A stretch of DNA of 56,358 bases from Planctomycetota bacterium (lineage in GTDB: Bacteria; Planctomycetota; Planctomycetia; Gemmatales; Gemmataceae), in NCBI GenBank assembly GCA_021807595.1, contig JAKBCS010000013.1, positions 1 to 56,358 on the forward strand. The letters run 5' to 3'. The notes under the pieces were generated by a model. That model ran no database searches and was not told the DNA's origin. It worked only from the letters and a program-made list of their open reading frames with translations. The first letter of the stretch is position 1; every line of letters starts with the position of its first letter. The position numbers and the translations under genes are program-made. Positions 194-14,132 of the stretch are shown here, piece after piece.

Positions 194-1198
194 TTACTCT
201 TCCATCATTAACTCGCCCGCTTGATCGAGCCGTTGGATGACTTCGACCAGAGCCTTCTGCGCCTCGCGCACTTGGGCGATGGGAACCATGCCGAGAAACT
301 CCATCTCTTCCGCCAAGGCTTCGCGGGCGCGCTTCGAGAGGTTCTTTTGCACCTTCTCGGTTATCTCTTGGTTGGCCCCCTTCAAAGCTAAGCTCAGAGT
401 CTTGGCCTCGATTTCCGACAGAAGCCTCTGCATCGAGCGGTCGTGAATGCGCAGCAGATCCTCGAATTGATAGAGCAACTCGCGGATGCGTCGCGCCGTC
501 TCCGGTTCGTTCTCTTCCAGCGCGGTGAGAACTTCCAGGCGTTCGGTTTTTTCCAGACAGCGCAACATGCCGGCCATTTTCTCGTAGCGACCGTCGCCAC
601 TGGCATCGCCGGGTTTGTCGGACAAGGCGCGCGCCTTCTTAACCAAGGCTCCGGCTATGCGCGCCAACAGTTGCGTCGAAGGGTTTGACATCCGGCTGAG
701 GCGAATCGAGACCTCGCGGCGCATGTCCGGCGTCAGTTCGCGGAGGATTTCGCCGGCCTTCTCGCCGGGCAGGGTATTGAGTACCAGCGAGATCGTGTTC
801 GCCTGCTCGTCTCCCAGTACCTCGGCCAATACATCCGCCGGCAGCGCCTCCAGCGCGCGGACGGGATCGCTCGGCAGAGGGGGCAGCTCGCGGTGCGACG
901 GCGGCGGAATTTCCAGCTCGGATGGTGGGCGATAAGCCGCCAGTTGGGTGGGCGTCGGCGGAGGGGGCGGAGGTTCGGGAGCGGCTTCGACTTCGGGTTG
1001 CTCCAGCATTTGCTTGAATTCGAGGACAATTTCGTCGAGATCGGCCGGCTTCTCTTGTTGTTGACGCAGTTTTTCCAATTCGGGGCGCAAGCGTTCGCCG
1101 CGCGCCGGAGCCAAGGCGTTCAGCACCTTTTCGGCCAACTCCGCCGGTAGCCGGTATAGCAAAAGGACGGCTTTTTCGATACCCGTTCGCACGGCCAT
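194..1198 (-). CDS. fliG: Flagellar motor switch protein FliG (divergent)
   Basis: FliG is the rotor protein that joins the MS ring (FliF) to the C ring and takes torque from the stator. The 334-residue length is normal. The N-domain (about 1-60) carries AVLLLYRLP. A proline-rich linker (about 70-115, with PPPPPP) is unusually long. The middle domain (about 115-205) has DEQANTISLVLNTLP where the family normally has EHPQ. The C-terminal torque domain (about 235-334) is well kept: RSMQRLLSEI, LALKGA, SKRAREAL, EEMEFLG, QKALVEVIQRLDQAGE. By eye, the residue matching E. coli Arg297 is a proline. It is the last gene of a leftward operon after fliF, 18 bp away, and is followed by hairpin repeats rather than fliH. 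The identification is firm; the functional effect of the substitutions is inference. Confidence 0.93.
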   Translation of the reverse strand: MAVRTGIEKAVLLLYRLPAELAEKVLNALAPARGERLRPELEKLRQQQEKPADLDEIVLEFKQMLEQPEVEAAPEPPPPPPTPTQLAAYRPPSELEIPPPSHRELPPLPSDPVRALEALPADVLAEVLGDEQANTISLVLNTLPGEKAGEILRELTPDMRREVSIRLSRMSNPSTQLLARIAGALVKKARALSDKPGDASGDGRYEKMAGMLRCLEKTERLEVLTALEENEPETARRIRELLYQFEDLLRIHDRSMQRLLSEIEAKTLSLALKGANQEITEKVQKNLSKRAREALAEEMEFLGMVPIAQVREAQKALVEVIQRLDQAGELMMEE

Positions 1199-1216: not shown

Positions 1217-2749
1217 CTATGCCGCCGCCTGCGCCGCCGGTTGCCGCGCCGGGGTTTCCGCTTCGTTGAGCCAGCGCTCCAGTACCTTGGCCAATCGTTG
1301 GGGGTCTTCGCCGAGTAGGCCGGCCACCAGTTCATCGTCTTGCACAGGTGTCTCGGCAGCCGGCGGCGGTGCTTGATCCTTGGGACGCGAACGCCGAAGG
1401 TACATCCAGCCCATCAACATCGCCACCAACGCCGTCACGCCCAACGACGCATTCCGAGCCAGAGATAGATACCAACGCATCCGCTGCGATTCTTGATACT
1501 CGGCTTCGACGTTCTCCAGCGTGGCCCCGCTGGCCAATTTGAGATCGCTAACCTTGATTTCATCGCGTCCCTTTTTGAAGCCGACCGCTTGTTTGATGAT
1601 GTCCTCGGCGTCGGCGACGACCAGACCCGCTCCCGCCGCGCCTTCCGGCTTCGATAGATCCAAGAGCGCCGCCACCGTCAAGCGCTCGATGTTGCCTCGC
1701 CCTTCCTCCATCTCCTGTTCGATCTTCGTTGCCCGCCATTCCGAATCGGTATTTTCCTCATTGTCGTTACTTTGATGTCCGCTCGATGCCGTAGGAGGCG
1801 TTTTGTTCGGCAGGTTGCTCGACGCGCCCGCTCCGGGTTTGACGGCTTGGCCGCCCGTCGCGGACTTGCGATTGGTGATCGTCTCCTTGACCAACACGCG
1901 CTGTTCGGGATCGTAGCTTTCCTTCTTCGTCTTCTGGTGCAGGAAATTGACTTCCGCCGTGACTCGCACCACGGCTCGGCCGGGACCGAGGACTTGAGCG
2001 AGCATGTCCTCGGCGCGATTGGACAGGTATGTCTCCAACTCGCGGCGATATTCCATCTGACTGGCGACCGGCCCAGGAGTATCGCCCTTGTTGTCGCTCA
2101 GAAGCCGGCCCGACGTGTCCACCAGCGTCACCTGTTCGGGGTTTAATCCTTCGACGCTGCGGGACACCAAGGCGACGATGCCTTGCGCCGTGGAGCGCGA
2201 TAGCACCGCGCCCGGCTTCAGCTTCAACACCACACTGGCCGTCGCCGGCTTCTGTTCGCGGACGAATGGCGTTTGCTCCGGGCGAACCAGATGCACCCGG
2301 GCATGGACGATCGGCTCGACCTGCACGATGGTCTTCGCCAATTCCGCTTGCAGCGCGCGATCGAGATTGACGTGTTGCAAGAACGGCGTCATACCGACGT
2401 TCATTTCGTCGAAGATCTCGAACCCCTTGCCCTTGCTCGGCACCCCTTCGGCGGCGAAGTCCACGCGCAACTGCGACACGCGCTCGGCGGGAACGAGGAT
2501 CGTCGCCCCATTGGCATTCAATCGGAACGGCACGCTTTGCGCCTGCAGCTTGGCCGTGATGACTCCCGCATCTTCTGGACTAAGCCCGGAATACAACACT
2601 TGATAATCGGTCTGAAAAATCCATACACCGACGCCCACGAGAACCGTGAGGCACACCCCCGTCAGCGCCAACAAAGAGATACGGCGCGGACGACTCATGC
2701 CCTGATAAATGGCACGCAACTGCTCGTAGAACTGACGGAAGAATCGCAT
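1217..2749 (-). CDS. fliF: Flagellar MS-ring protein FliF
   Basis: FliF forms the MS ring in the inner membrane, the base on which the rotor and export gate assemble. The protein is 510 residues. It has a first membrane helix at about 24-46 (ISLLALTGVCLTVLVGVGVW) and the YscJ/FliF ring-building domain just after it (YSGLSPEDAG, EGVPSKGKGFEIFD, VNLDRALQAELAKTI). A long variable periplasmic region follows, then a second membrane helix at about 435-453, and a short acidic cytoplasmic tail (DDELVAGLLGEDPQRLAKVL) of the kind that binds FliG. It lies between fliE and fliG in one leftward operon. The 81-bp gap to fliE holds a short copy of the GGCTATCGG repeat. Confidence 0.96.
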   Translation of the reverse strand: MRFFRQFYEQLRAIYQGMSRPRRISLLALTGVCLTVLVGVGVWIFQTDYQVLYSGLSPEDAGVITAKLQAQSVPFRLNANGATILVPAERVSQLRVDFAAEGVPSKGKGFEIFDEMNVGMTPFLQHVNLDRALQAELAKTIVQVEPIVHARVHLVRPEQTPFVREQKPATASVVLKLKPGAVLSRSTAQGIVALVSRSVEGLNPEQVTLVDTSGRLLSDNKGDTPGPVASQMEYRRELETYLSNRAEDMLAQVLGPGRAVVRVTAEVNFLHQKTKKESYDPEQRVLVKETITNRKSATGGQAVKPGAGASSNLPNKTPPTASSGHQSNDNEENTDSEWRATKIEQEMEEGRGNIERLTVAALLDLSKPEGAAGAGLVVADAEDIIKQAVGFKKGRDEIKVSDLKLASGATLENVEAEYQESQRMRWYLSLARNASLGVTALVAMLMGWMYLRRSRPKDQAPPPAAETPVQDDELVAGLLGEDPQRLAKVLERWLNEAETPARQPAAQAAA

Positions 2750-3632: not shown

Positions 3633-3992
3633 TCAATGACCGAGAATCGCGCTGCGCATCATGCCGATGCGGCCGACCAACATCTGGGATGCCATGCCGA
3701 ACGTCAGACTGTTTTTGTTCAAATTGCCGAGTTCTTTATCGAGATCGACCGTGTTGCCGTCTTGTCGAGGCGTGTTCCCCTGCCCTTCGACGACCTGCGG
3801 GGCTACATGGAGAGCGGTTCCTTCTCCCTGCTTGCCCAGCGCTCGGGAAAAGGCGTCCTCGAACGACACTTCCAGCTGGTGATAGCCAGGCGTGTTCACA
3901 TTAGCGAGGTTGCGCGAGATCAGCCGATGCCGCAATTGGGCAACATCCATCATCCGCGCGAGGAGATCGGCTTGCGGGATATTAAGGTTCAT
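3633..3992 (-). CDS. flgB: Flagellar basal-body rod protein FlgB
   Basis: FlgB is a proximal rod subunit that assembles with FlgC and FliE. The conserved N-terminus is LRHRLISRNLANVNTPGYHQ followed by VSFEDAF. The C-terminal end VDLDKELGNLNKNSLTFGMASQM is also typical. The reading frame is open up to 4130, but only the start at 3992 (MNLNIPQAD) gives the normal FlgB length (119 residues). Longer starts at 4043, 4067 or 4130 add a Ser/Arg-rich leader with no family match. No clear Shine-Dalgarno precedes any of these starts, so the exact start is uncertain. It is the first gene of the leftward operon. Confidence 0.9.
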   Translation of the reverse strand: MNLNIPQADLLARMMDVAQLRHRLISRNLANVNTPGYHQLEVSFEDAFSRALGKQGEGTALHVAPQVVEGQGNTPRQDGNTVDLDKELGNLNKNSLTFGMASQMLVGRIGMMRSAILGH

Positions 3993-4154
3993 GCGGATTG
4001 TATCGGTTGTGTTAGAGTTCGGCTTGAATCGATTCGAGGGCATGTATCGAACGGAGGAGATCCTCATACACTCACGGGAAAGGGAAGCGGATAAAAAGCC
4101 TCTCGCTCCGCTGAGTCTAGGGTGAGACAAGAGACGGCAGGCTTTTTTTTGACG

Positions 4155-4223: not shown

Positions 4224-6248
4224 ATGTCGATGCGGACGGCTCAAGTTCCGAGAGTTAGTCGGCCTCCCAGTGGAAGCAAAGCAAGCAGCTTGCCAGTAGA
4301 TCGTACACGGAGGGATGCTTTGTTGGCGCGAATGGCCGACAATCCCCATCTGCCGAGTCCGCCGAACATCGTATTGCAGGTTCTGGAACGAGCTAGTCGC
4401 CTCGACTGTTCGCCCTCGGACCTCGCCGCGGTCATTCATCGCGATCCGGCGATGTGCGGCAAGATCTTGAAGACGATCAATTCGGCACTGTACGGTCTGC
4501 CGCGCGCCATCAGTTCCATCGAGCGCGCCATCGCGTTGTTGGGATTTAAGCCGGTGCGTTCGTTGGCGATTGGCCTGTCGCTGCCGGCGATGCAGCGGCA
4601 AATGACGTGTCCGCCGCCGTCGGCGACGTTTTGGAAGGAATCGGTTGCCGGCGCGATCATCGCTCAGGAGCTTGCCACGCACTTGGGGCGGCCGAGTCCC
4701 GACGACGAACTGGTGGCCGGTCTACTACGCGATCTCGGCATGTTGGCACTGCAACAAATCGATGCCGCCGCTTACGCCCAAATCCTGGACCGCCCGCTTG
4801 CCGAACTGTCGCGCGAACAGTGCCGCTTGGAAGAAGAGGCGTTCGGTATCCATCACGCCGACGCGAGCGCCTTTCTCCTGGGACGATGGCGACTGCCCGA
4901 AGATATCACCGAAGCCATTCGCTACCATCATTCTCCAGAATTGGCCGCCGACCTGCCGCATCCGGTGGTCGAGCGCGCGCGTCTGTTGGCCTTCGCCGGC
5001 CAGATCGCGCGGCTTCCCTCGTGTCAGGACGAACGACGGGAAGGCGACGCCGAGTTGCTTCGCGACATCCTCGTCTCCGCGCGCGAACAATACGGCTTGA
5101 ACGATGCCGATCTCACCGCGTTCCTTGAGCCGGCGGCCAAAAAGATCGAAGAGTTCGCCGAGTTGATGGACATCAACGTAGGCAGTTTCGAGAACTATGG
5201 CCGCATCATCGCATTGGCCTCGGAGGAATTGGTCAAACTGACCGTGGAGACGAGCGCGGATAAACTGCGCATTTTGGAGCTGAAGCGTCAGGCGGAGCAA
5301 GAGACGCAACATTGGCGCGATCAGGTTCGCCGTCTCCGGCACGAGTCGCGCCGCGATCCGCTGACCGATGCTTTCAACCGAGGCTGCTTCGAACAGGAGT
5401 TAATCGTCCAGTTCCGCCGGGCGCGCCGCCGAGGCACGGTTCTCGGGCTGGTTTTTCTCGATCTCGACGATTTCAAGGGGATCAACGACCGATCCGGCCA
5501 TCTCTTCGGCGACCGAGTGCTGCGTGAGACAGCCGATCGTCTCTTCGCTGCCGTGCGCGAGGGCGATATCGTCGCTCGCTACGGCGGCGACGAGTTTTGC
5601 GTTCTCATTGAGAACACCTCGCCCAATGGCCTCCGCGCCATGACCGAGCGGCTGTGGCAAGACTTCAATCGGCGAACGATCGGCGAGGGCGGGCACCTCA
5701 CCGTTCTTCGCGCGTCGCTGGGAGCGGTGGTTTGCTTGCCTCGTACCTATCCTCTTTCGGCCAAGGAGTTTCTGGCCGAGGCGGATCGCGCCATGTATGC
5801 GGCCAAGACGACCGGAAAAAACCAAGTCTCCTTCGTTTCGTTGCTGACAGCGGCGGACGAACGCTTCCTTGCGGCGGTGGAGAAACGCCTATTCAGCGTC
5901 TGGTTGTCCGAGCGGGGAATATGGGAGCCGCAACATCTTGGGATCGGCGTTCGGCGTTCGGCGGCCAACTTCGAGTCGCCAGGACGCTTGGCCCTTCGGC
6001 TCGGTTGGTTGACGCCCTCGCAACTCCGACCCATTCTGCGCGAACGTCGCGCCAGCCGACGCCGCTTCGACCAGATCGTTCTCGAACGCGGTTTGACCGA
6101 CAAACACCTGTACGCGCTCCTGGCGCTTCAGTTGGAGCCGCCCGAAGAGCTGGCGGCCCAACTGGTGACGCAAGAGGTTGTCGAGGAAGCGGCCATGCAC
6201 GTCCATCTGCGCGCGTTCCATCAATGGCTTCAGACAACGCTTGCCTGA
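4224..6248 (+). CDS. HDOD-GGDEF signalling protein (putative diguanylate cyclase)
   Basis: This 674-residue cytoplasmic protein joins two signalling domains. An HDOD domain spans about 30-230 (LPSPPNIVLQVLERASRLD, AVIHRDPAMCGKILKTINSA, SIERAIALLGFKPVRSLAIG, later YHHSPELA). After a linker with helical character, a GGDEF diguanylate cyclase domain spans about 365-530. The active-site motif RYGGDEFC is near residue 453, and an RxxD product-inhibition site (REGD) sits just before it, so cyclic-di-GMP synthesis with feedback control is expected. The last 110 residues (RLALRLGWLTPSQLRPIL, FDQIVLERGLTDKHLYALL) form a small helical domain that was not named. It heads the rightward operon with fliL-fliM-fliN, 77 bp upstream of fliL, which ties it to motility control. 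Domain calls are firm; the role in flagella is inference from position. Confidence 0.92.
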   Translation: MSMRTAQVPRVSRPPSGSKASSLPVDRTRRDALLARMADNPHLPSPPNIVLQVLERASRLDCSPSDLAAVIHRDPAMCGKILKTINSALYGLPRAISSIERAIALLGFKPVRSLAIGLSLPAMQRQMTCPPPSATFWKESVAGAIIAQELATHLGRPSPDDELVAGLLRDLGMLALQQIDAAAYAQILDRPLAELSREQCRLEEEAFGIHHADASAFLLGRWRLPEDITEAIRYHHSPELAADLPHPVVERARLLAFAGQIARLPSCQDERREGDAELLRDILVSAREQYGLNDADLTAFLEPAAKKIEEFAELMDINVGSFENYGRIIALASEELVKLTVETSADKLRILELKRQAEQETQHWRDQVRRLRHESRRDPLTDAFNRGCFEQELIVQFRRARRRGTVLGLVFLDLDDFKGINDRSGHLFGDRVLRETADRLFAAVREGDIVARYGGDEFCVLIENTSPNGLRAMTERLWQDFNRRTIGEGGHLTVLRASLGAVVCLPRTYPLSAKEFLAEADRAMYAAKTTGKNQVSFVSLLTAADERFLAAVEKRLFSVWLSERGIWEPQHLGIGVRRSAANFESPGRLALRLGWLTPSQLRPILRERRASRRRFDQIVLERGLTDKHLYALLALQLEPPEELAAQLVTQEVVEEAAMHVHLRAFHQWLQTTLA

Positions 6249-6325: not shown

Positions 6326-6826
6326 ATGGCCAATGAGACCAGCGCGCCGCCCGCGAAGGGCGGCGGCAAGACGACAATTATCCTCCTCGGCGTCTGCGGC
6401 ATCCTTGCCTTGGGCGCGGGTGGGGTCGTGCCCTATTTTCTCTTTCACGAACCATCCAAGGGCGCACATGCCACGGAAGCAGGCCATGCACCATCGAGCG
6501 GCAAACAAGCCTACGTCACCTTCGGCGATCCCATTCTGGTAAACTTGAATGAAGAGCGCCTGACGCGCTATTTGAAATTGAAGATTCTCCTCGTCGTCGA
6601 TGCGCACGAGGAGAAGGCGGTTGCCGAGTTGATCCAAAAGAAGAAACCGGCCTTGAAGAACTGGCTGATCGCCCATCTGTCAGACAAGTCTCTCCCCGAA
6701 GTCAGTGGCGCGGCGGGACAAAACAAGATGCGCCGCGAGATGTGGCAGCAGTTCAACGGCGAACTGTTTCCCGATGGACCGGAAAAGATCCTCGACATCT
6801 TCTTTGAAGAATTCGTGGTGCAATGA
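6326..6826 (+). CDS. fliL: Flagellar basal-body-associated protein FliL
   Basis: FliL is a single-pass inner-membrane protein that surrounds the stator and supports motor torque. The 166-residue protein has an N-terminal cytoplasmic Gly/Lys-rich stretch and one membrane helix (about 17-36, IILLGVCGILALGAGGVVPY). The periplasmic domain carries the family signature: YVTFGDPILVNLNEERLTRYLKLKI, then LIAHLSDK, and the end ILDIFFEEFVVQ. The start at 6326 is chosen because GGAGG lies 8 bases upstream; an in-frame ATG at 6293 has no such site. It overlaps fliM by 4 bases (ATGA), so the two are translationally coupled. Confidence 0.93.
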   Translation: MANETSAPPAKGGGKTTIILLGVCGILALGAGGVVPYFLFHEPSKGAHATEAGHAPSSGKQAYVTFGDPILVNLNEERLTRYLKLKILLVVDAHEEKAVAELIQKKKPALKNWLIAHLSDKSLPEVSGAAGQNKMRREMWQQFNGELFPDGPEKILDIFFEEFVVQ

Positions 6827-7686
6827 CGCTTAGGGCATACGACTTTCGCAAGCCGGATCGCTTGGCGGCAACGCTGGAACAGCGTTTGACGGCCTGGATG
6901 CGCGTGGCCAGTAAGTTGGCAGCGGAGAAAGCTGCCAAAGAACTGCCGTTCCGCATCGAGATGACGTTGAGCGGCGTCGAGAATGCCTCGCCGATTGAGG
7001 TACTCTCGGAGCTTCCCAACCCGGCGATCGGCTATCGGGTCTCCATCGGCGACGCTCCCGCCGACATGCTGTTCGTATGGACGCGACCGCTGGCCTTGGC
7101 CCTCGTCAACGCCGCCATGGGCGAGACGCCGACGGAGCTTCCCGAAGACCGCGAGCTAACGGAAGTCGAGTTGTCGTTGTGCGAGTATCTCATGCAGAGC
7201 CTCTGCGCCGCCGTCTTGCACGAGACGTGGACCGCCGGAGAACCCTTGTCGCTGACGGTGCGCGAGCGCGAACCGTCGCCGCGCTGGACGCGCCTGTTCG
7301 TGAAGGCGGAGCAGCTGTTGCTATGCACGTTTGTCTTGCGCGGGCCGTTCGGCGAACAGGAATGGTATTGGCTCGCTCCGTACCAAACCCTTTTCGAGCG
7401 TCTGACGCGCGCCGAAATCGTGGAGCCGTCGCTGAGGCCGCAAGAAGCCGCGCGCAAGCTCGAAGGGGTGGTGCGCGAACTGCCCGTCGAGGTCAGCGTG
7501 GACCTCGGCACGATTGAACTCTCGCTCGCTCAGCTGGCGGCATTGACTGCGGGCGACTTACTGATTCTCAAGCAGCGCGTCGGCGAGCCGCTGACGGTTC
7601 GGGTCGATCACCGACCGAAGTTTCGCGGTTGGCCGGGCCGAGTGGGCGCACGGCAATCACTGCAAATCGAGTCCCTTCGGGAGTGA
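6823..7686 (+). CDS. fliM: Flagellar motor switch protein FliM, divergent and N-terminally short
   Basis: FliM is the C-ring protein that normally binds CheY-P and FliG and sets rotation direction. This copy has 287 residues, somewhat shorter than usual. It begins directly with the YDFRKPDRL motif that in the family follows the N-terminal CheY-binding peptide (EIDALL-like), and that peptide is absent. The middle domain aligns with the family (FVWTRPLALALVNAAMG, ELTEVELSLCEYLMQSL), but the GGxG motif that contacts FliG is not present; the local sequence is AAMGETPTELPEDRELTE. The C-terminal SpoA domain (about 215-287: LPVEVSVDLGTIELSLAQLA, LTAGDLLILKQRVGEPLTVRV) is clear. The position between fliL and fliN confirms the call. 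Rewired signalling is inference. Confidence 0.85.
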   Translation: MTLRAYDFRKPDRLAATLEQRLTAWMRVASKLAAEKAAKELPFRIEMTLSGVENASPIEVLSELPNPAIGYRVSIGDAPADMLFVWTRPLALALVNAAMGETPTELPEDRELTEVELSLCEYLMQSLCAAVLHETWTAGEPLSLTVREREPSPRWTRLFVKAEQLLLCTFVLRGPFGEQEWYWLAPYQTLFERLTRAEIVEPSLRPQEAARKLEGVVRELPVEVSVDLGTIELSLAQLAALTAGDLLILKQRVGEPLTVRVDHRPKFRGWPGRVGARQSLQIESLRE

Positions 7687-7692
7687 GCAAGC

Positions 7693-8097
7693 ATGGCCGT
7701 CGAAAGCGAATCTCTCGCCCCAGAAAGCGTCGTCCATCCTTCCGTCGCGCTCAAGGGGGGTGAACCTGCGGTTCGTTCGGCCCGTCCCGACGTGGTGGCG
7801 CGCGTGGCCGACTTTGCCGAGCTAAACGCGCCGGCGACTCCGGGCACTCCCGCGCCGTTGAATCGCCTGCTCGATGTAACCGTCGTCGTCACCGCCGAAC
7901 TGGGTCGTGTAACCATGCCAATCAGCGAAGTGCTGAGTCTCAATGCCCATTCCGTGTTGGAACTGAATCGCTCCGTCACCGAGCCGGTCGATCTACTCGT
8001 TCAAGGCGTGTTATTGGCGCGCGGCGAAGTGGTCGTCGTCAACGATTGTTTCGCCGTTCGGATTAAGGAAATAGCGGAGCCGAAGAAGAGAGGATAA
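7693..8097 (+). CDS. fliN: Flagellar motor switch protein FliN
   Basis: FliN is the SpoA-domain protein forming the base of the C ring with FliM and helping FliH/FliI docking. The protein has 134 residues: an unconserved N-terminal half and a complete SpoA domain at about 55-130 (LNRLLDVTVVVTAELGRVTM, ISEVLSLNAHSVLELNRSV, VDLLVQGVLLARGEVVVVND, FAVRIKEI). Only 6 bases separate it from fliM, so it ends the rightward operon. A perfect hairpin follows 16 bp after the stop. Confidence 0.95.
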   Translation: MAVESESLAPESVVHPSVALKGGEPAVRSARPDVVARVADFAELNAPATPGTPAPLNRLLDVTVVVTAELGRVTMPISEVLSLNAHSVLELNRSVTEPVDLLVQGVLLARGEVVVVNDCFAVRIKEIAEPKKRG

Positions 8098-12763: not shown

Positions 12764-12777
12764 TGGTTTTGTTGGAG

Positions 12778-12850
12778 TGGAGCCGACGGGGATCGAACCC
12801 GTAACCTCAGCATTGCGAACGCTGCGCTCTCCCAGTTGAGCTACGGCCCC
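12778..12850 (-). tRNA. tRNA-Ala (anticodon CGC)
   Basis: Read on the minus strand, the 73-base gene folds as a complete cloverleaf. The acceptor stem is GGGGCCG with CGGCTCC (one G-T pair), the D stem GCTC/GAGC, the anticodon stem CAGCG/TGCTG with loop TTCGCAA (anticodon CGC, codon GCG), and the T arm ACGGG-TTCGATC-CCCGT. CCA is not encoded after the discriminator A. Confidence 0.95.
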
Positions 12851-12927
12851 AGCACATTGGGGTGAAGAGGGATTATAGGGATTTCCTGGACCCCTCATCA
12901 AGGGCGGATTTCCAGGATTGCCATCAC

Positions 12928-13005
12928 CCGGCTGCTTACGCTGCCGGTTCGCCAACACTGGAGTCCGGCAGCTTACGCTGCCGGTTCGCCAACACTGGAG
13001 TCCGG
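12928..13005. repeat. Tandem 37-bp repeat carrying a CCGGCAGC-TTAC-GCTGCCGG hairpin
   Basis: A unit beginning GCTTACGCTGCCGGTTCGCC occurs at 12934 and again at 12971 (period 37). The second copy forms a perfect 8-bp stem with TTAC loop together with the bases just before it; the first has one mismatch. The array ends 5 bp before the stop codon of the next gene, so it lies at the 3' end of that transcript. The motif resembles dispersed hairpins recalled from planctomycete genomes. Confidence 0.8.
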
Positions 13006-13010
13006 TTCGC

Positions 13011-14132
13011 CTATTTCTCGGCGGCTGCCAAGCGTTGGTAGAGCGTGCCGTCGAACGGAGAGGAGAGGAGACGTTTGCGACACGCCTCCGCGCGATCGGC
13101 GTTGTTGTGCGGCGCTTGGGCGAACAACTTCGACAGATAGTACAGAGCCTTGGCGTGTTCCTCTCGGTCCCGATTGTACAACATATCGACCTTGCAATAC
13201 TCCCAGAACGCACTTTCGTTCTCGTTCTTGATGCGCCGGTAATCGCCGAGTACGTTGTGGGCGAGGGCGAGCAAATGATCGTCTTTACCCGCGCGCACAA
13301 TCTCTGTCAGCAGTTTGTCGATGCCGTCGAGATTACTCTTCTGGGCAATGCGCGACTGCATCAGATAGACGTTGACGAAAGCGCGCTGGGGATCGTCGCG
13401 AGGCAACGCGGATTCGACTTGAGACAGCTTGCGTTCGGCATCGGCGAACTTGTCGGCGCGCATCAGGAAACGGGCGGATTGCAGTTGGTTTTGGAGTTTG
13501 AGTTCCGGGGCGAGTCCGGCAAGGCTGCCGAGCGCCGCGTAGGTTTGACTGGCGGCTTCGTTGTCGCCCTTGTCCACTTGCAACGACGCCAACAGTTGCA
13601 AGGCAGGTACAATCTCCCAGCCGTCGCCGAAGCCGTTCTTGTATTCGACGAGCGCGGCAATGGCGGCTTCGCGCTGGCCGACATCGAGGCGCGCTTGCAA
13701 CGCCTTGATCTGCGCGATGCGATATTGAAGGTAGCGATGGATGGGGACGAGTCCGCTCAGCTTGGTGCCCCCTTGTTCCATGCGATCGAGTGCTTCGAAG
13801 GCACCGAGAGCCTGGCGCAGTAGGTCCGCCCTCTTGTCGGGACGAGTCTCCTCCAACGCTCGGATAAGCTGATTGTCCGGAGCGCGAAACTGTATTTTGC
13901 TGACGACCTCGTTGCCGTACTCCACCTGGACGATGCTGGAGGTTGAGATGTCCTTGACGGCTCCGCCTTTGGTCTTCAGTTTAATCCCATTGGGCGATTC
14001 GTTCTCAATGGTTCCCGTCACGCTCTGCTGTTTCTTCTGCCCTTCTTCTCGGAGATAGACGGTGTCTTCCGCCCACAACACACCGCCTCCTACAAAAGCG
14101 GCCAATCCGAGAGTCAAGATAAAACGCATCAT
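13011..14132 (-). CDS. Secreted TPR-like protein, 373 aa
   Basis: A signal peptide (MMRFILTLGLAAFVGGGVLWAE) is followed by a short beta-rich domain (about 25-80: TVYLREEGQKKQQSVTGTIE, GIKLKTKGGAVKDISTSSIV) and then a helical repeat region (about 90-370) with TPR-like Ala/Leu spacing (LLRQALGAFEALDRM, LYYLSKLFAQAPHNNADRAE). It probably sits in the periplasm. It is the last gene of a three-gene leftward unit, 48 bp after the 1015-residue TPR protein. The partner genes suggest a shared envelope complex, but the role is unknown. Confidence 0.8.
   Translation of the reverse strand: MMRFILTLGLAAFVGGGVLWAEDTVYLREEGQKKQQSVTGTIENESPNGIKLKTKGGAVKDISTSSIVQVEYGNEVVSKIQFRAPDNQLIRALEETRPDKRADLLRQALGAFEALDRMEQGGTKLSGLVPIHRYLQYRIAQIKALQARLDVGQREAAIAALVEYKNGFGDGWEIVPALQLLASLQVDKGDNEAASQTYAALGSLAGLAPELKLQNQLQSARFLMRADKFADAERKLSQVESALPRDDPQRAFVNVYLMQSRIAQKSNLDGIDKLLTEIVRAGKDDHLLALAHNVLGDYRRIKNENESAFWEYCKVDMLYNRDREEHAKALYYLSKLFAQAPHNNADRAEACRKRLLSSPFDGTLYQRLAAAEK

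Follow-up and report, generated by a model that had tools for sequence, protein, structure and literature searches.

A clade of planctomycete FliM proteins that begin without the CheY-docking peptide

The window analysed here is a stretch of 56,358 nucleotides from a planctomycete of the Gemmataceae, and it carries a group of flagellar genes (Table 1). One of these encodes a short FliM homologue, whose N-terminus reads MTLRAYDFRKPDR. Its neighbours are fliL on one side and fliN on the other, and the order fliL-fliM-fliN is conserved across the examined loci of the window's order. The window fliF, used as a query, matches the fliF neighbours in relatives, and E. coli FliF matches the same gene in L245. 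Elsewhere in the window (12777-13171), ARAGORN called a tmRNA with the odd tag EPDSSVGEPAA. At its 3' end this call contains an entire tRNA-Ala (CGC); a tRNA is all that Rfam supports there, and the tmRNA is probably a false call.

Table 1. Features of the flagellar region of the window
Feature	Position	Strand	Evidence or remark
fliG	194..1198	-	PF01706 4.9e-35; torque-helix residues retained
EQAN in FliG	797..808	-	occupies the site of the EHPQ motif that binds FliM
fliF (MS ring)	1217..2749	-	named by reading
flgC and fliE			between flgB and fliF; named by reading
flgB	3633..4130	-	named by reading
HDOD-GGDEF protein	4224..6248	+	RYGGDEF intact, MshEN-like tail degenerate; immediately precedes fliL in 4/4 genomes of the genus
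fliL	6326..6826	+	PF03748 5.7e-17
ATGA overlap of fliL stop and fliM start	6823..6826	+	fixes the start codon; 28/30 loci with both genes
fliM (short FliM homologue, 287 aa)	6823..7686	+	FliM middle domain ~15-196, SpoA 217-284; N-terminal CheY-docking peptide absent
GETP loop in FliM	7120..7131	+	residues 100-103, at the GG(x)G FliG-contact position; alignment
fliN (single SpoA domain)	7693..8097	+	PF01052 4.2e-23; TIGR02480 84.1 bits, cut-off 84.05

The product of this gene is a true FliM homologue. The SpoA family PF01052 scored 62.9 bits (cut-off 23.8), and the FliM middle-domain family PF02154 scored 25.5 bits, just below its cut-off of 27. The curated FliM equivalog TIGR01397 aligned over model positions 66-317 of 320 and reached 86.7 bits, compared to a cut-off of 219.6. 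A structure predicted from an alignment of 28 sequences, with a mean pLDDT of 84.9, matches the middle domain of FliM from H. pylori and from T. maritima (4fq0_B, 4fhr_A) with Z of about 22 over about 180 residues; the match to 4fq0_B has a Z of 22.1 over 180 residues at 2.4 Å. SpoA structures are matched with Z of 9-10. The type III secretion protein SctQ was considered as an identity and ruled out, as TIGR02551 gave 31.1 bits, below its curated cut-off of 100.8, and the gene setting is flagellar.

The first-pass annotation of this DNA had proposed that the protein begins without the CheY-binding peptide, and that a longer upstream start with an EIDALL-like peptide would speak against this. 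We looked for such a start. Upstream of the ATG the frame is open for just five codons and then meets a stop. Together with the fliL overlap, this makes it impossible for translation to begin further upstream and include a docking peptide, and confirms the proposal. Of the 30 loci of the window's order with both genes, only L098 and L103 do not show the coincidence of the fliL end with the fliM start.

The same annotation had also proposed an alignment of planctomycete FliM proteins and a genome search for a second FliM or FliY, and both were run. FliM was matched in 33 of the 102 genomes of the window's order. One locus (L102 of G045) was excluded from the FliM set as probable contamination, judged by its appearance alone. 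A further 392 genomes sampled the phylum outside the order. Short FliM was found in 28 aligned genomes of the order and in seven of family f3 in the same class, whose loci L136-L142 are the nearest relatives outside the order. The alignment omits L103 (G027, FliM in two pieces) and L104 (a 97% copy of the window); L028 and L034, located at contig ends, were read for N-terminus and start alone, and L261, L279 and L280 gave no FliM frame. The docking peptide occurs in 0/35 short FliM proteins, compared to 52/52 other planctomycete FliM loci read, among which one genome is counted twice (C_L038 and C_L162). These canonical proteins have an LSQxEIDALL-like start, of the VLSQNEVDALL or ILSAEELDALL type, which precedes the YDF motif by about 25 to 50 residues.

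In a tree built without the N-terminus and the GG-loop columns, the 35 short proteins form a single clade (SH-aLRT 100, stem 1.71). Its members come from the window's order and from only a subset of the f3 genera. Such a distribution requires either transfer, or an early loss that was followed by replacement. We favour the view that the short proteins are a monophyletic type whose ancestor lost the entire N-terminal CheY-docking segment. A search of open-licence PMC papers found no natural FliM without the docking peptide. FliM itself is known; relative to the open-licence literature, what appears new is the natural loss of the peptide across a whole clade.

A profile of 22 positions, built from 23 peptides, was used to search for a displaced peptide. 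Its rows came partly from the control genomes G268, G344, G454 and G483; the controls G149, G253, G317, G384, G416 and G458 gave it no rows, though their relatives did. The profile matches FliM in all ten control genomes (E 4.2e-7 to 2.3e-5). All 27 short-FliM genomes searched lack the peptide, with a best match at E 0.0067 or weaker, or none. The strongest of these matches, in G125, is internal, at about residue 163 of a 381-residue frame. By this profile, a docking peptide moved onto another protein was rejected for these 27 genomes. No EIDALL-like peptide was seen in the N-terminal segments of FliN, read by eye.

The genome of the window is a draft of 282 contigs, 95.5% complete. A PF01052 search of it for a second FliM or FliY found just FliM and FliN above the SpoA cut-off, and two further matches below it. 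The sole PF02154 match there, of 12 bits, is on contig C158, and this search missed the window's own FliM. The peptide is thus missing from FliM and, at a sensitivity that recovers it in all ten controls, from the rest of the genome, where no further FliM or FliY passes the SpoA cut-off. This excludes canonical docking of CheY-P on FliM_N.

The first-pass annotation had also pointed to a missing GGxG motif, through which FliM contacts FliG. This is correct for the protein itself: the loop is GGDG in E. coli FliM and GETP in the window. Most FliM proteins of the window's order have the loop consensus GExP..LP.DRE. However, strict GGxG is a weaker yardstick than was assumed, as it is found in 0/35 short FliM and in 25 of the 53 canonical rows (52 planctomycete loci and E. 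coli), and is missing from the other 28. GG at the contact loop is found in 1/35 short FliM, compared to 53/53 canonical rows. In 53/53 canonical rows, the residue four positions ahead of GG is an aspartate; in short FliM, aspartate does not rank with the commonest residues there. The argument is further weakened by the loss of GG in other planctomycete lineages, in some rows with a docking-like peptide.

The partner protein is altered at the corresponding site. Passages of two papers describe EHPQR and GGXG as the FliG-FliM contact (PMC6700473, PMC6290876). The histidine of EHPQ is present in 21/21 canonical planctomycete FliG proteins, in 0/30 of the window's order and in 2/7 from short-FliM genomes of f3, the two being G188 and G206, which retain EHPR. 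According to passages of PMC6290876, Vibrio cells whose FliG carries H145E or H145W at this motif are no longer motile. The loss of the histidine must therefore be compensated if short-FliM motors turn. All short-clade FliG proteins have lost the GG hinge; so have 5/21 canonical ones, which rules this loss out as a clade marker. In the torque helix of FliG from the window's order, R281 is found in 30/30 and an acidic residue at 288/289 in 30/30. Roles of torque-helix residues are covered in passages of PMC6700473.

FliG was also sought in divergent lineages, where 19 regions were fetched and 11 had a usable FliG. Outside the short clade, GG and the histidine are lost together in f36 (6/6 with FliG found) and f10 (1/1). 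In f26, GG is lost and EHPQ kept (2/2), whereas in f73 GG is kept and the histidine lost (2/2). These two lineages rule out a perfect coupling of the losses in FliM and FliG. A docking-like peptide without GG is found in f10, some f36 rows and one f80 row; f73 shows the opposite, and degenerate versions of the peptide occur among the f36 and f80 rows. FliM proteins of f73 (L259, L260, L262) and f26 (L266, L268, L271) seemingly have no docking peptide, lost independently of the window's clade, and peptide loss is not unique to the short clade. In G013, G018 and G067, FliM is present and no FliG match was found at E<=0.001; G013 is listed as 100% complete. Five genomes with canonical FliM (G458, G268, G454, G222 and G470; L195-L199) have a second cluster of fliE-fliF-fliG-fliI, with fliH in four and no FliM recognised. 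It is a second flagellum-like system.

In the window's genome, contig C155 carries all three CheW domains; there is a single MCP. The sole chemosensory cluster found (L211:1295-9984, on this contig of genome G000) encodes CheB, a CheA-REC hybrid, two CheW, CheR-TPR, an MCP and a REC-SpoIIE protein. No stand-alone receiver was found among the seven genes scanned. The REC-SpoIIE phosphatase is likely the output of the cluster, which resembles alternative-function systems. Because the only cluster found is of this type, CheY-driven reversal is most likely absent in the window's species.

Across the order, neither CheW nor MCP genes are significantly commoner in genomes with FliM (CheW, 25/32 vs 47/70 without; MCP, 24/32 vs 47/70), and 7/32 FliM genomes have neither, counts of absence that rest on draft genomes 75-97% complete. 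This fits motors without CheY control. However, all eight genomes of the order with at least six MCPs (6-28) are flagellated and have short FliM (hypergeometric 4.8e-5, kinship ignored). In G023, a receiver-CheA-CheW-MCP run (L244) is located about 17-24 kb from flgB-fliE-F-G (L245). An absence of CheY control thus need not hold clade-wide. Chemotaxis probably acts on the flagella in MCP-rich relatives such as G023, where some route from array to motor likely exists.

We propose, with a probability of roughly 0.6, that the C-ring of this clade is functional, that its FliM does not dock CheY-P and that the contact between FliM and FliG has been remodelled, following a single loss in the ancestor of the clade. 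Short FliM would build the wall of the C-ring. Its contact with FliG would be remade through the change of the GG loop to GExP in FliM and of EHPQ to EQxx in most FliG. The motor would assemble, turn and serve export, and neither CheY-P nor Cle-type proteins would be recruited via FliM_N. The window's species would most likely be a smooth or unidirectional swimmer without CheY-driven reversal. Its motor is expected to be non-reversing or to switch spontaneously, and may be controlled via the making of flagella or via a brake. In the relatives that have 6-28 MCPs, any signal reaching the motor would dock at the FliN SpoA domain or the FliM middle domain, or would alter speed.

The most substantial alternative, which we consider possible and distinctly less probable, is that CheY-P still acts, docking on the SpoA domains of FliN and FliM or on the FliM middle domain, with a dispensable FliM_N tether. 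The MCP-rich flagellated genomes agree with this, as does the location of receiver genes next to CheA in G023, G022, G012 and G011. A second CheY-P site on FliN is known from passages of PMC6700473, and FliN residues L68, V113 and D116/E are retained in 29/29 proteins of the order. Of four positions that contact CheY in E. coli, the FliN through which the first-pass annotation proposed control keeps three. The fourth counts against this alternative: A93 is V/I in 25/29 FliN of the order and A in 17/20 canonical ones, the latter being those found among the 52 loci, mostly of one type and including L053, L055 and L056, which may be poor. In E. coli, moreover, FliN binding depends on FliM (passages of PMC6700473), and the FliM genomes with neither CheW nor MCP also argue against this alternative. 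A related, equally tentative possibility is that short-FliM flagella are controlled by chemotaxis through a signal entry other than FliM_N, with a refitted FliM-FliG contact, unlike the E. coli, Bacillus and Caulobacter types. Replacement of the CheY input by c-di-GMP, through the diguanylate cyclase beside fliL or through c-di-GMP-sensing CheA kinases, is unlikely. The HDOD-GGDEF gene, with an intact GGDEF, adjoins fliL in 4/4 genomes of the genus, and a similar one adjoins flgB in G392 of another family; it is absent from the other flgB/fliM regions examined (L077, L079, L098/L212, L213). A model of an MshE-related c-di-GMP domain matches five of six CheA from chemotaxis-rich short-FliM genomes (L244:8471-11419, L246:8258-11455, L248:12329-15526, L249:17232-19991, L250:6788-9916), two of them above the cut-off (47 and 46.5 vs 38 bits). 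However, RLGxxL, the c-di-GMP-binding motif of MshEN (passages of PMC5013675), is absent from every CheA with a match and from the HDOD-GGDEF tail. The Cle route is also less likely, because the c-di-GMP-binding Cle proteins of Caulobacter require the same FliM motif that is missing here (passages of PMC5677366). The broader claim of the first-pass annotation, that switching is controlled differently, is partly supported, as far as canonical FliM_N docking is excluded; FliN, c-di-GMP and FliL, suggested there as substitutes, are no more than candidates.

A decaying flagellum, or one that does not serve swimming, with FliM under relaxed constraint, is improbable. It would agree with the long branches (stem 1.71), with a FliM match in just 33/102 genomes of the order, and with G295, whose FliM is split over two overlapping matches (C35:12256-13100), one with an in-frame stop, and in which FliG was not found; the flagellum of G295 is possibly decaying. 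The 28 aligned FliM have open frames and share 13 invariant residues, FliG retains its torque-helix residues and the order fliL-fliM-fliN is conserved, all of which argue against it. An artefact (wrong start codon, assembly error or overlooked second canonical FliM) is very improbable, even for a draft genome in 282 contigs. The closed upstream frame, the identical start in 28/30 loci, a near-identical copy of the locus in the named record L002, and the lack of the peptide in 27/27 genomes, several assembled in one to four contigs, all speak against this.

The chemotaxis signal is generally taken to enter the flagellar motor where CheY-P docks on FliM_N. The short clade offers a natural knock-out of this route, with docking lost and 6 to 28 receptors kept in eight genomes. 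With it one can test whether a motor can run on a second CheY site, on a speed control or on c-di-GMP alone, and which elements of the contact between FliM and FliG are needed for switching. If the usual steering is absent, these motors escape standard chemotaxis control; otherwise the steering signal docks somewhere new.

Short FliM resembles the canonical FliM of TIGR01397 (E. coli, Thermotoga, Helicobacter) in its middle-domain fold, C-terminal SpoA domain and placement between fliL and fliN. Unlike the latter, which has the LSQxEIDALL peptide and GG loop, it has no peptide and carries GETP, and falls below the equivalog cut-off (86.7 vs 219.6 bits). The canonical planctomycete proteins (L037-L066, L143-L164), from the same phylum and partly the same class, share its domains. 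They differ in having a VLSQNEVDALL-like peptide and GG in 52/52, together with EHPQ in the 21/21 FliG examined. FliY (T. maritima 4hyn; Bacillus) shares the CheC-like middle fold (Z 20.4 to 4hyn_B) and, presumably, the C-terminal SpoA domain. It differs in its N-terminal CheY peptide, which short FliM lacks. The closest functional precedent is in Caulobacter, with the FliM motif mutant ID57WA and the Cle proteins: passages of PMC5677366 report that the mutant motor, without its docking motif, keeps motility and swimming speed and does not reverse. That motor is a mutant of one species, whereas short FliM is a natural clade.
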